The notes beneath the pieces were generated by a model, which had not been told where the DNA came from, ran no database searches, and saw nothing but the letters and a program-made list of their open reading frames with translations. 64,000 nt of DNA from a candidate division LCP-89 bacterium B3_LCP. GTDB lineage: Bacteria > Electryoneota > B3-LCP. The stretch is taken from assembly GCA_005223185.1 (NCBI GenBank), contig NJBN01000001.1, positions 186,001-250,000 of the forward strand, in the 5' to 3' direction. Both the position numbers and the translations under genes were made by a program. Below are positions 30,375 to 51,950 of the stretch, one piece after another (positions within the stretch are counted from its first letter, which is position 1; the number at the start of each line of letters is the position of its first letter).

Positions 30375-30404
30375 ATTAGTTTTTAGATGATATTACTTTT
30401 GTCA

Positions 30405-30494
30405 GAACCGCGGATGGACACAGATTACACAGATGACGCGGATAAATATCCGTGCAATCCGCGACATCCGCGATCATCCGTGGTTCCGACTATT
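30405..30494 (-). repeat. Fold-back repeat, copy A
   Basis: This ~90-bp imperfect palindrome carries GAACCGCGGAT at one end and ATCCGTGGTTCCGAC at the other. It lies just downstream of the minus-strand methyltransferase stop. It shares the TCCGTGGTTCCGACTATTT end with copy C. The interior is diverged from copies B and C, so it is an older copy. Confidence 0.8.
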
Positions 30495-30496
30495 TA

Positions 30497-32104
30497 CTAC
30501 AATAATTTAAGTGTCTTCTCTTTTTCTCTTATCTCTCGATTGGCTCTCTTTAGGGTTTCATGCCATTGTGGGAGATCAGGTTTTTTACCCTCGAATAATT
30601 CTTTTATGGTGACGATCTGCATGACTGGGAACTCTAAATCAACACCAGGGATTTTCCATTTCCCCATAGCGGCAGCTTCTGACAACATCCCCTTCGTCGG
30701 TGGTTTAAGAGCGATGATAATTCCCATAGGCGCTTTATCGCGTTCGAGAACAGCTTTCAGCTCGCGCACGTCTTTGGGTTGATAAGCGCCCCCTTTGACC
30801 GAAATGATGATCTTCTGGTAATTGCTCTTTCCATCTTTGAAGAAGAGCAATCCGTCCACCCCCTTGTCGCCCCCACCTTTGCTCTTGTAGGGTTGTCCAC
30901 TTAACAGAGATACAGCCCAGGCTTCGAACTGGAAAGGGGATTGTTTAAATAGCTGTTCGGCGTCATATACTGATTTGGGTTCACCGATAACCTCGAATTT
31001 GGAATCGGGAAAATGATCTGCCATACGCTTCTTGATTAGGGCAATGGCTAGATGAGTAACGTCGATCCCGATCCAATTTCGGTTTAACTTCTCCGCCGCT
31101 GCAATCGCAGTACCGCAGCCACAGAAGGGATCAAGGACGACATCGCCTTCGTTAGAAGAAGTTTGGATAATCCGCTCAAGTAGCGTAATAGGCTTCTGAG
31201 TAGGGTAACCAAGGCGTTCCTTAGCGAATGATGAAATAGGATTAATATCCATCCAAATATCCTGTAAAGAATTACCAGGCATTTCGTCTAAATAACGTTT
31301 ATAGCGAGGAACATTTCCTGGTTTCTGTTGGACAATCCTTCCCTCCGAAATAAGATGCTGCATTTTCTCTTTTGAAAATCTCCAATATCGCGAAATCCCC
31401 ATTATTTCGTATTTTGGATTGCCTTTGGCAGCTCCTCCTGGCCCTGCTATATTATCAAGCGTATAGCGTTTTCCGGTATCTTTGTCGACATATTTATAAA
31501 TTTTCTCTATGTAGGTTTGGTCATATGGTTGATATAATTGGTTCCATTTGTACTTATCGGTTTTTGTGTAATATAAGAGAATGTCGTGTAATCGCCCAAA
31601 ATGCTTTGCTCCCTGAATGAAATCACTATGTGCCGTTGATCTCTTCCATATGATTTCATTATTAAATAGAGTTATTCCGAATATCTGATCCATCAAAATT
31701 TTCAAATAATGACTGGCTGTAGGATCACAGTGAAGGTAAATGGAGCCGGTCTTTTTCAACACTCGGTGAAGTTCCACCAGCCTTATTGCCATCATAGTCA
31801 GGTAAGCCATGAGGTTATTGATCCCCATGAATTCCCGGAAGGCTTGCATCATGTTCTGCAACTGGGCAGGGTAGGCTCCGCTCATAATCTCATCGAACGC
31901 CTTCTGAGTCTCTTCCGTCCAGGTCCAGGAATCTTCGAAAGCCTGTATCTGAGCAGCGGAGTCCAAACCGGTCTTATCCTGAAAGATGACGTTATACGCC
32001 CGCTTGGAATTGAACGGCGGATCCAAATAGATCAGATCCACAGATTCATCCTTGACATGCTTGCGCAGGATGTCTAAGTTGTCGCCGTAATAGAGAGAGT
32101 TCAT
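30497..32104 (-). CDS. Beta-class DNA methyltransferase with Mrr-like nuclease tail
   Basis: The 535-aa protein methylates adenine N6 or cytosine N4 in DNA by family. Motif IV comes first (DPPF, residues 28-31) and motif I later (DPFCGCG, residues 325-331), the order of beta-class enzymes. After about residue 385 a second domain has the pattern of an Mrr/PD-(D/E)xK nuclease: EAWAVSLL, then GVDGLLFF, then IISVKGG with Lys437. This could make it a self-contained modification-restriction enzyme, or the tail may only aid target binding. It starts 15 nt after a second PD-ExK gene, so the pair looks like a type II restriction-modification system. The target sequence is unknown. Confidence 0.85.
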   Translation of the reverse strand: MNSLYYGDNLDILRKHVKDESVDLIYLDPPFNSKRAYNVIFQDKTGLDSAAQIQAFEDSWTWTEETQKAFDEIMSGAYPAQLQNMMQAFREFMGINNLMAYLTMMAIRLVELHRVLKKTGSIYLHCDPTASHYLKILMDQIFGITLFNNEIIWKRSTAHSDFIQGAKHFGRLHDILLYYTKTDKYKWNQLYQPYDQTYIEKIYKYVDKDTGKRYTLDNIAGPGGAAKGNPKYEIMGISRYWRFSKEKMQHLISEGRIVQQKPGNVPRYKRYLDEMPGNSLQDIWMDINPISSFAKERLGYPTQKPITLLERIIQTSSNEGDVVLDPFCGCGTAIAAAEKLNRNWIGIDVTHLAIALIKKRMADHFPDSKFEVIGEPKSVYDAEQLFKQSPFQFEAWAVSLLSGQPYKSKGGGDKGVDGLLFFKDGKSNYQKIIISVKGGAYQPKDVRELKAVLERDKAPMGIIIALKPPTKGMLSEAAAMGKWKIPGVDLEFPVMQIVTIKELFEGKKPDLPQWHETLKRANREIREKEKTLKLL

Positions 32105-32119
32105 GTGATTTTTTATTGA

Positions 32120-32800
32120 CTAAAGTCCAAAATACGTCTTTACCAGAAAATGCCAACCATTAATTTGGTTAAACCTTTCAAGTACTATAGTGGATATAGG
32201 TATAACTGCTGATTCGATCCTGTAGAAATATACATCACGTCTTTGACTTATGTTGAAGTCAGTACTGAGGAAAAGAACACCATTCAGCTTTTCAATGCCA
32301 GGATATTTCTGTTCTGTAGTGAGCTCTTCAACTTTGTTTATTGCTGTTTGCACAATAGAATCATCAATGCAATGTGGGCTACTGCTTGCGATGACCAATA
32401 TATTTGGCTTACCGTCAATAAATTGATTTACCTTTTCGATTGCGGTATCAACAATCTGATCCCAAGGATCTTTTTTGGTTTCCCCAATATTTGTTAACAT
32501 GCCCTTTATCGCCTCCATTTTTTCCTGATCAATTCGATCCTGGTCTTTAAAGCGAAAATGCTTCACTTCAGCATAGAATTCATTATTATCAAGAAAAAGA
32601 CGCAAGTCCGGACTATCTCTCATTTCTACAGAGAATCCATGGTGAAGAAATAGTAATGCGGCATAATCTTCACATTTTAGGTCGTCAAACTGGAGGTTAT
32701 CGTTTCTATTATCTTCGAGCTTCCTTATGTAACTGTCAACGTTTATCGCTCCCAGCTCACTTAGCTTATTCCGTATGATATCAATGAATTCCTGGTGCAT
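32120..32800 (-). CDS. Candidate restriction endonuclease, PD-ExK fold
   Basis: The 226-aa protein is not a recognised named enzyme. Residues 64-80 read PDL, then a gap, then EVK (Pro64-Asp65, Glu78, Lys80), which is the PD-(D/E)xK nuclease signature, and CEDYAALLFLHHGF before it fits the upstream helix of the fold. The ATG at 32800 is preceded by an AGGGA sequence at good spacing and is preferred over an in-frame TTG at 32836. It is visibly AT-richer than its neighbours, suggesting recent arrival. It lies 15 nt upstream of the methyltransferase on the same strand, so it is the likely restriction partner; this is inference. Confidence 0.65.
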   Translation of the reverse strand: MHQEFIDIIRNKLSELGAINVDSYIRKLEDNRNDNLQFDDLKCEDYAALLFLHHGFSVEMRDSPDLRLFLDNNEFYAEVKHFRFKDQDRIDQEKMEAIKGMLTNIGETKKDPWDQIVDTAIEKVNQFIDGKPNILVIASSSPHCIDDSIVQTAINKVEELTTEQKYPGIEKLNGVLFLSTDFNISQRRDVYFYRIESAVIPISTIVLERFNQINGWHFLVKTYFGL

Positions 32801-32854
32801 TTTCTTTCCCTGATTAACCAATTCTGCGACATACAAACTACCACCCTACCTTTC

Positions 32855-32948
32855 GTCTGAACCGCGGATTTTCGCAGATTTCACGGATCACACGTATTTA
32901 ATCCGCGCTATCCGTGTGATCCGTGTTCATCCGTGGTTCAGACTATTT
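32855..32948 (-). repeat. Fold-back repeat, copy B
   Basis: From 32855 to 32939 this copy is identical, base for base, to copy C (33376-33460), 85 bp. It is a long imperfect palindrome: the ends GTCTGAACCGCGGAT and ATCCGTGGTTC pair with few mismatches, and inner arms such as ACGGATCACACG and CGTGTGATCCGT also pair. It lies just downstream of the GxxExxY gene stop. A second partial end (GTTCCGACTATTT) follows. Confidence 0.9.
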
Positions 32949-32958
32949 GTAGTTCCGA

Positions 32959-33345
32959 CTATTTATGTGTCTTGATAAATCTCTTCCAGTTTAATCGTTT
33001 CTCACCGAAATTAATCAGCAAACCAATTTCCAGTTTGTAAGCTTCCAAGTAATTTATCATCTGAGCTTTATGCAGATCATCCAACTGGGAAATTGCCTTC
33101 AGCTCTACCATGATTAATTCCTCGACCAGGAAATCTACCCGGCGAGTACCGATATCCATACCCTTGTATTTAATGGGAATTTCTTTCTCTCTGTCGGATT
33201 TCAATCCCGCCTTTTCAAATTCAACTGCCAATGCCCGTTGATAAATCAATTCCTGAAAACCGCTCCCAATAGTATTATGCACCTCCATTGCACAACCTAT
33301 TATCTTTTCGGTTAATTCAGGGTACTTGAGTTTAGTGGTACTCAT
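32959..33345 (-). CDS. GxxExxY protein (PD-ExK-fold family)
   Basis: The 128-aa protein contains the family signature G-F-Q-E-L-I-Y at residues 29-35. Asp71 and the Glu81-Leu82-Lys83 triad (VELKA) fit the PD-(D/E)xK nuclease core. Function is unknown; members occur in many copies per genome in uncultured bacteria. The ATG at 33345 is chosen because the ORF extended upstream to 33405 would run into the repeat. The gene sits precisely between fold-back copies B and C. This arrangement suggests a mobile or recombining cassette. Confidence 0.85.
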   Translation of the reverse strand: MSTTKLKYPELTEKIIGCAMEVHNTIGSGFQELIYQRALAVEFEKAGLKSDREKEIPIKYKGMDIGTRRVDFLVEELIMVELKAISQLDDLHKAQMINYLEAYKLEIGLLINFGEKRLNWKRFIKTHK

Positions 33346-33375
33346 GTTAATTAAATTACTTATATGTGGTTTCCT

Positions 33376-33470
33376 GTCTGAACCGCGGATTTTCGCAGAT
33401 TTCACGGATCACACGTATTTAATCCGCGCTATCCGTGTGATCCGTGTTCATCCGTGGTTCCGACTATTTA
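33376..33470 (-). repeat. Fold-back repeat, copy C
   Basis: This copy is identical over 85 bp to copy B, 521 bp away in the same orientation. Its TCCGTGGTTCCGACTATTT end lies beyond the RecG stop codon. Read on the minus strand, the element begins AAATAGTCGGAACC shortly after each upstream gene's stop. Confidence 0.9.
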
Positions 33471-50783: not shown

Positions 50784-50849
50784 AAGATAGAAGGAAAGAA
50801 GGTTAACCTAATAGCGAGCTAAACTAGTTTAAATTAGATCTCACTGAAG

Positions 50850-51398
50850 ATGGATCGTTTCTTTGAATTCGTAAGCAAAGTTATAGATGATTGTGATAGT
50901 CTACTGAATGATAAAGACTATGAGAATAGAAAGGATATAGTAAGAGCTGTTCTGTTTTCAATCATTAGTCTTTTATCAGCCTCATATTGTTCTGGTCGCA
51001 CCAGAAAAAATAATTGCTTCAACAATAAGAAGGAATTTGTTGCTTTTCTTAATAAATTTTGGATTTCTACTGAGAAATCACAGACGAGAAACCTAGATGT
51101 TGATGGTGAATCCCTGAATTTTAGAAGTCCAGAATTATTATGGGAAATAAGGAATTTAAGTGCACATCAATTTCGCGATGCAGGAATGGCTTTTCCTACC
51201 GAGAACGATGAACAGGTAATCGTCTCATGTCCTGTAGAACACAACGGTGTAACACGGAATGAAGTGGAAGTAAATCCTTATGTTCTCTCAAAAGCGTTGC
51301 GATGTATGAGCGTTCTCTATAAAGCTTTTTGCAAAGCGAATAATATAGATCCTAAGGCAAATTTACCTTATAAATCGATCTATGTTAAAGAAATTTAA
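50850..51398 (+). CDS. HEPN-like protein, function unknown
   Basis: The 182-aa protein is not recognised by family name. It is helical and contains RNLSAH at residues 101-106, matching the Rx4-6H motif of HEPN ribonucleases. The N-terminal DIVRAVLFSIISLLSA helix fits that fold too. The gene is clearly AT-richer than its neighbours, which suggests recent arrival. No antitoxin or nucleotidyltransferase partner is seen beside it. The region just downstream carries repeat hairpins and a GIY-YIG gene. Toxic RNase activity is possible but unproven. Confidence 0.55.
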   Translation: MDRFFEFVSKVIDDCDSLLNDKDYENRKDIVRAVLFSIISLLSASYCSGRTRKNNCFNNKKEFVAFLNKFWISTEKSQTRNLDVDGESLNFRSPELLWEIRNLSAHQFRDAGMAFPTENDEQVIVSCPVEHNGVTRNEVEVNPYVLSKALRCMSVLYKAFCKANNIDPKANLPYKSIYVKEI

Positions 51399-51439
51399 CT
51401 GGATTTATTGTCATTGTTTTCTTAACTAAAACATCCCCA

Positions 51440-51473
51440 GCCGTCATTCTGGCTTTGTCCAAAATCAGACGGC
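51440..51473. repeat. Nested hairpin, GTCATTCTGG family, left outer copy
   Basis: Outer arms GCCGTC and GACGGC are perfectly complementary. The core ATTCTGG...CCAAAAT pairs with one mismatch. The core matches the other copies while the outer arms do not. Confidence 0.75.
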
Positions 51474-51475
51474 GA

Positions 51476-51518
51476 AAAAGCTTGTCATTCTGGCTTGTCC
51501 AGAATCCGACAAGCTTTT
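51476..51518. repeat. Nested hairpin, GTCATTCTGG family, left flank of GIY-YIG gene
   Basis: Outer arms AAAAGCTTGTC and GACAAGCTTTT pair over 11 bp. The core ATTCTGG (51487) pairs with CCAGAAT (51499) around a 5-nt loop. It is an inverted counterpart of the copy at 51845-51885. Confidence 0.85.
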
Positions 51519-51541
51519 AGGAATCGATAGAACAATCTAAT

Positions 51542-51841
51542 ATGCCAGATAAAACGTTTGCTGTGTACATTTTGGCGAATGAGCGACCTACTCTTTATAT
51601 TGGTATGACAAATGATTTGATTAGAAGGGTACAGGAGCATAGGGAAAATGTGAATCCAAGGAGTTTTACCGCAAGGTATTCAGTGCACAAACTTGTTTAT
51701 TATGAATTCCTTGATGATGCGTACAATGCGATAGTGCGAGAGAAGCAATTGAAACACTTACATAGAATAGAGAAGATAGAATTAATAAGACAATTTAATC
51801 CGAAGTTTGTGGATCTGTTTGATAGGATTGTTACAGTTTGA
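51542..51841 (+). CDS. Small GIY-YIG nuclease-domain protein
   Basis: The 99-aa protein is a stand-alone GIY-YIG domain: the front reads [19 protein letters not shown], followed by RRVQEHR. Single-domain proteins like this (UvrC N-terminal type, YhbQ relatives) cut DNA or RNA; roles vary. It lies between inverted hairpin repeats (51476-51518 and 51845-51885), the right one starting 4 nt after its stop, and an extra hairpin further left. The sequence is AT-rich. This layout suggests a mobile cassette or a nuclease acting on its flanking repeats. Confidence 0.85.
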
Positions 51842-51844
51842 AGA

Positions 51845-51885
51845 CCAACTTGTCTGATTCTGGACAAGCCAGAATGACAAGTTGG
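51845..51885. repeat. Nested hairpin, GTCATTCTGG family, right flank of GIY-YIG gene
   Basis: Outer arms CCAACTTGTC and GACAAGTTGG pair over 10 bp. The core ATTCTGG (51857) and CCAGAAT (51869) pairs around a 5-nt loop. Reverse-complemented, it matches the left copy in the core and differs in the distal arm bases, with pairing kept. It may also act as a terminator. Confidence 0.85.
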
Positions 51886-51950
51886 GGTAATGACCAGCAA
51901 TAACGACACAGAATGACAAATTGGAGTAGAATCTAGCCGTACGGCTTACC

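Follow-up and report, generated by a model that had tools for sequence, protein, structure and literature searches.

The window analysed here, a 64,000-nucleotide stretch from a candidate division LCP-89 bacterium (B3_LCP), contains a small GIY-YIG nuclease gene that is enclosed by two mirror-image hairpins, treated below as REPs, in the spacer between a DegT aminotransferase gene and an SLT gene. The features of this locus are as follows.

50784-51950, no strand: lineage-specific spacer from the DegT aminotransferase gene to the SLT gene, holding the unit and a 182-aa ORF (relatives compared, G003 and G001)
51440-51473, + strand: extra, weaker REP outside the left end, oriented as the left REP (-7.1 kcal/mol, z -2.6)
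51476-51518, + strand: left REP hairpin with an exact core (DNA fold -15.7 kcal/mol, z -8.9), comprising a TGTC tag (51483-51486), inner stem ATTCTGG/CCAGAAT, loop CTTGT and outer arms AAAAGCTTGTC/GACAAGCTTTT
51483-51879, + strand: whole unit, bounded by the TGTC tag in the left REP and its inverted counterpart GACA in the right REP (51876-51879), with inverted 33-nt arms
51542-51841, + strand: GIY-YIG nuclease gene, an intact ORF of 99 aa that encodes the catalytic module only (PF01541, E 1.7e-11)
51845-51885, - strand: right REP hairpin, the left one inverted, with an exact core (DNA fold -15.4 kcal/mol, z -7.5)
51908-51928, - strand: degenerate half REP outside the right end, a 90% direct repeat of 51870-51889

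An earlier note on this DNA had described the ORF as enclosed by inverted hairpins of identical core, with the right hairpin starting 4 nt after the stop codon and a further copy lying outside the left end, and all three observations agree with our analysis. The left and right hairpins are 33-nt inverted copies that are 97% complementary and separated by 335 nt, and in DNA folding none of the shuffled sequences folded as well as either of them. The right hairpin begins 4 nt past the stop codon, and the outer copy, found at 51440-51473 with its weaker fold, has GTCATTCTGGCTT in common with the left REP. The half REP on the other side, which the earlier note had not mentioned, reads GTCATTCTGT on the - strand and gave no fold in DNA folding. 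The 23-nt hairpin core occurs exactly twice in the window, where no occurrence within 3 mismatches is expected, and has 21 copies within 3 mismatches in the 3.79-Mb genome (0 for the reversed control). The same genome contains an additional, decayed GIY-YIG copy.

Judged by their sequences, the window hairpins match the CGTC/TGTC-tagged REP superfamily, as a lineage variant. This superfamily was defined by Di Nocera et al. 2013 (PMC3733652), allows TGTC as the tag and includes the dRS3 repeats of Neisseria and RPE-4/6 of Rickettsia; in the published form an 8-9 bp stem starting with AT encloses a loop of 4-5 nt and both tag and tail are unpaired, with the tail mostly fitting CCA (PMC3733652). 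The window REPs share the tag (TGTC at 51483-51486, inverted at 51876-51879), the stem starting with AT, a loop of 5 nt, the occurrence of doublets and a dispersal of intergenic copies, as seen in the genomic count given above. They differ in having an inner stem of 7 bp and an outer stem in which the tag side pairs with the tail, and because of these two differences we regard them as a lineage variant; longer inner stems are found, and free CCA tails are common, in other phyla. The authors of the superfamily reported that CGTC REPs never flank transposase genes, concluded that the superfamily 'apparently lacks a dedicated transposase' and ended their survey by asking what moves these REPs (PMC3733652). 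Their paper names neither a dedicated enzyme nor a link with GIY-YIG, which is not mentioned in it, the sole match to 'yig' being in the reference list.

PF01541, scoring above its curated cut-off, is the single Pfam domain of the 99-aa protein, and the residues Y9, Y19, R29, H33, E67 and N86 are invariant in 25 relatives; the domain and these conserved catalytic residues place the protein in the GIY-YIG superfamily. The AlphaFold2 model is confident (pLDDT 92), and its nearest solved structures, at marginal Foldseek E-values of 0.001-0.04, are the UPF0213 protein BH0048 (1zg2) and the branched-DNA nuclease Slx1. UPF0213 is also returned by sequence search, so that it appears as a sequence neighbour while both proteins are predicted fold neighbours. 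Slx1 differs in being a larger eukaryotic repair nuclease with a partner, Slx4, and repeat-bounded genes were found described for neither protein. A long-site DNA-binding region beside the nuclease module, as in homing endonucleases, was not found in the 99 aa by Pfam. In Bradyrhizobium the gene is under purifying selection, with a median dN/dS of 0.067 for eight intact copies at one site.

GIY-YIG genes with the same flanking hairpins, for which the earlier note had recommended a search, were found across many phyla. Our sample was made up of the protein's 80 best-matching relatives among GTDB species genomes, from Nitrospirae, Ignavibacteria, Omnitrophota, Alphaproteobacteria, Verrucomicrobia, Bacteroidetes, Chloroflexi, Acidobacteria, Patescibacteria, Clostridia and others. 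Over these 80 loci, GTC-AT stem-loops numbered 3.71/kb within 150 bp of the gene versus 0.11/kb beyond 1.2 kb, an enrichment of ~34x, and nine permuted tag triplets reached only 0-0.13/kb near the gene. Strict REPs were present on both sides of 27/77 relatives (35%) as against 4/410 other ORFs of these loci (1%; Fisher p 5e-20), 0/137 small ORFs (Fisher p 3e-14) and 2/61 ORFs with long spacers (Fisher p 2e-6); beyond this strict two-sided third or so, relatives had REPs on one side, variant forms or none. Seemingly ordinary genes lying between REP doublets, such as one for a trigger-factor-like protein, are among the two-sided control ORFs. A test that made no use of the tag placed the left-right inverted-repeat score at or above the 99th percentile of shifted positions in 36 of 78 genes. 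Left copies were in + orientation in 31/37 cases and right copies in - orientation in 26/37, and a start 3-5 nt past the stop codon is usual for the right copy in those flavobacteria that were examined. Inspection of 30 loci from the window's phylum and beyond found such hairpins at most of them, often in forms that the strict scan misses. The functional link thus survives the refuting condition set in the earlier note: 19 of the 21 genomic core matches are distant from GIY-YIG genes, yet the enrichment beside the genes is very large.

The association extends to differences between paralogues and between genomes. Among paralogues in 14 genomes, strict two-sided REPs occur at 15/18 of those scoring above 140 bits versus 0/29 of those below 80 bits, a contrast that is valid for the strict REP form only because a tolerant scan detects other GTC-tagged palindromes at part of the 55-80-bit group. 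Low-scoring paralogues were accordingly set aside as a clean negative control, and the principle may reach beyond this clade. REP type co-varies with protein similarity (Mantel 0.45, or 0.43 after control for GC; p 0.001), a correlation to which shared host ancestry may partly contribute. REPs of the CGTC-1 type were present in 21/35 genomes with the gene versus 3/26 without it (p 1e-4), and within the window's phylum alone the relation of gene presence to the number of CGTC-1-type REPs was not significant (p 0.07). One genome (G006) has 34 CGTC-1-type REPs and no detected gene, and the REP type of the window was weakly informative about gene presence over 61 genomes (p 0.03). Another member of the phylum (G025) contains 376 CGTC-1-type REPs, many of them in +/- pairs 46 nt apart with the tags outward.

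The extent of the unit was examined by comparing non-syntenic units from different genomes by BLAST. In pairs such as L180/L189, L184/L189, L216/L236, L216/L228, L216/L232 and L228/L232 the alignment enters the REPs on both sides, and in others (such as L181/L185 and L185/L190) the same tag-bounded homology is seen on the side that was scored. Homology in these pairs ends between -4 and 0 nt from the left tag and between 0 and +7 nt from the right tag. Exceptions were L228/L236, with homology extending ~22 nt beyond the left tag, and L212/L216, with ends shifted by 16-18 nt; more diverged non-syntenic pairs align over the gene only. Across 26 aligned units the base preceding GTC is always T or C and the base following GAC is always A or G (YGTC...GACR). 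Target-site duplications, which the earlier note had suggested looking for, were not detected in these 26 units, in which junction direct repeats did not exceed chance in length (2.35 versus 2.37). The units therefore lack the duplication that marks classical DDE transposons and MITEs, and the unit is not a classical cut-and-paste transposon. One genome has 16 matches to the family profile, 3 of which are in tandem.

Sites with and without the unit were compared in relatives. The window's own spacer, from the DegT aminotransferase gene to the SLT gene, measures 1167 nt and holds the unit together with the 182-aa ORF (50850-51398), which has no Pfam, NCBIfam or PADLOC match. In a genome of the same family (G003) 70 nt separate these two genes, with a related unit on the far side of the SLT gene, and in G001 the corresponding spacer is occupied by a RAYT gene (L337:2610-3128; NF047646, E 1e-53) with different palindromes of its own. 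At a site beside groEL in Bradyrhizobium, the unit is present in G061, only a fused symmetrical palindrome is present in six species and nothing is found in G111. The dnaN-recF spacer of Bradyrhizobium is variously filled, internally deleted, reduced to a doublet or otherwise occupied, and an internally deleted copy (L295) retains both REPs. In Azospirillum lipoferum the unit lies between sufB and sufC, and three related Azospirillum plasmids are without it. Sites without the unit, for which the earlier note had suggested looking, were thus seen at the window site (in G003) and at the Bradyrhizobium groEL site, with junctions that are not base-exact, as divergence between filled and unfilled sites is too high to place any junction to the base. 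As exact empty sites, the sufB-sufC (Azospirillum) and dnaN-recF (Bradyrhizobium) spacers were rejected as too diverged or containing other inserts, and a Rhizobium and a Spirosoma plasmid site had no usable junction. Fused symmetrical palindromes, tagged at both ends, were observed at L313, L314 and the loci beside groEL (L342, L344, L346-L348 and L365); they look like deletion scars in which the left half of a REP has been joined to the right half of its inverted partner.

The closest parallel among known mobile systems is with RAYT genes, which are always flanked by two inverted REPs (PMC2817692). Both systems place a small nuclease gene between a pair of inverted REPs of a kind that also has dispersed genomic copies, neither shows a larger target-site duplication and the same spacer can be occupied by either. 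The enzyme here is of the GIY-YIG type rather than an HUH tyrosine (Y1) transposase, the Y1 domain PF01797 not being found in the window gene, in which PF01541 is the sole domain; the tag is YGTC rather than GT(A/G)G, with TGTC as the head of the window REP. Given its lack of both the HUH domain and the GTAG-type head, the unit is not a RAYT-REP unit, though it appears to work like one. A second likeness is with GIY-YIG homing endonuclease genes (I-TevI and free-standing phage genes; PMC3943268), in which the nuclease is likewise encoded by a mobile segment; the window unit differs in having no intron or DNA-binding extension, in being bounded by REPs and in occurring at many unrelated loci.

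We propose, with a probability of roughly 0.6, that this is a REP-bounded mobile unit in which the nuclease does for CGTC-REPs what RAYTs do for GTAG-REPs. The earlier note had envisaged a small transposon-like unit without a transposase, and this part of its proposal is favoured by the recurrent architecture, the homology ending at the tags and the unit-free sites in relatives; from these sequence comparisons, we consider it very probable that the segment is a mobile unit bounded by REPs. The other part, that the GIY-YIG nuclease is the mobility enzyme of the unit, we hold to be probable: the association and the unit structure are visible in the sequences, whereas we infer that the nuclease acts on the REP. 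Since mirror-image hairpins enclose the gene and the whole package recurs across phyla, the enzyme is a good candidate for the missing machinery that spreads these hairpins. The minimal element would consist of one gene, for a small structure-type GIY-YIG nuclease, and two inverted CGTC/TGTC REPs with their tags outward. The nuclease would recognise the REP hairpin in an extruded or single-stranded form and cut it at the YGTC tag or close by, after which the REP-bounded segment would be copied to a new site by host repair or replication. Single and paired REPs that lack the gene would be non-autonomous copies on which the enzyme acts in trans. Because GIY-YIG enzymes hydrolyse DNA with activated water (PMC3943268), the ends would presumably not be rejoined by the enzyme itself, unlike those cut by HUH enzymes, and host functions must be assumed; hydrolytic cutting and host repair would thus take the place of HUH tyrosine chemistry.

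The strongest rival explanation makes the gene a homing passenger, a selfish GIY-YIG gene that targets existing REP doublets and is copied between them by recombination while the REPs are moved by something else. Both this explanation and the proposed mobile unit predict a protein that acts on REP DNA. Homing would fit the gene-free REP doublets with outward tags, which have the same geometry, the presence of only a fused palindrome in relatives at one Bradyrhizobium site, the great excess of REPs over genes and the fact that GIY-YIG is a known homing-endonuclease fold (PMC3943268). However, the protein is without the extra DNA-binding region typical of homing enzymes, G111 has no REP at the site that is filled in G061, which indicates that a REP was not always present there, and the fused palindromes of the dnaN-recF spacer resemble deletion scars in retaining left-type and right-type halves. 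We regard homing as unlikely, though it deserves more weight than the remaining alternatives.

An unrelated transposase, such as a RAYT or an IS enzyme, might move the REP-bounded segment in trans as MITE-like cargo with the nuclease as a passenger, and RAYTs are indeed present among genomes of this family, where one occupies the corresponding spacer. This is improbable given that the RAYT of G001 has different palindromes of its own, that CGTC REPs are reported never to lie beside transposase genes (PMC3733652), that target-site duplication was not detected in 26 units and that a single nuclease recurs in many phyla where cargo would be varied. It is more doubtful still that an ordinary gene is simply framed by hairpins serving as terminators or in regulation: the outer arms of the hairpins, with runs of A and T, do resemble bidirectional terminators in the window's genome, but the enrichment is specific to the tag and is not seen with permuted tags, an inverted copy lies upstream of the start as well as downstream, other small ORFs are two-sided in 0/137 cases and the hairpins move together with the gene. 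Hardest to credit is a house-keeping role, in which the enzyme would trim or resolve REP cruciforms and be placed close to REPs for regulation rather than moving them, for while the Slx1-like fold and the purifying selection on the gene would suit such a role, an enzyme of this kind has no need to lie between REPs or to move with them, and G006, with 34 REPs, has no detected gene.

A search of an open-access library of papers found no earlier link of GIY-YIG to REP or CGTC repeats. For CGTC/TGTC-REPs, which occur in many phyla, one small nuclease gene that recurs in a repeat-bounded arrangement would be a concrete candidate for the mover. We give about even odds to the broader reading in which moving the CGTC-REP superfamily is the dedicated task of GIY-YIG nucleases. 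Bacteria would then have a second, unrelated REP-spreading system, with a hydrolytic nuclease that recognises hairpins, together with host repair, in place of a transposase. If true, this would account for many of the genes for a 'GIY-YIG nuclease family protein' that are scattered between operons, and suggests that simple nucleases, besides transposases, can found miniature mobile elements.

Other nuclease genes were also observed between repeats. In L306 and other dnaN-recF spacers of several Bradyrhizobium species, a DUF559 gene between CCCTCTCCC-type palindromes occupies the place that the GIY-YIG unit has elsewhere. Within the window, two 94-nt repeats of 99% identity (32855-33470) enclose a GxxExxY gene (PDDEXK_3 nuclease family; 32959-33405, - strand), and more copies of the same repeat family bound a DNA methyltransferase gene (30497-32104) and a 238-aa ORF (32120-32836) at 30396-32949. 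The DUF559 and GxxExxY genes could be further cases of the same principle. Lower-scoring GIY-YIG genes often adjoin tRNA genes, as at L001 (G000:C18:106814) and 9/14 other loci scanned (e.g. L226, L247, L215, L227 and L193), and at several of these tRNA-adjacent loci a duplicated piece of the tRNA lies on the opposite side, as if insertion had occurred at tRNA genes.
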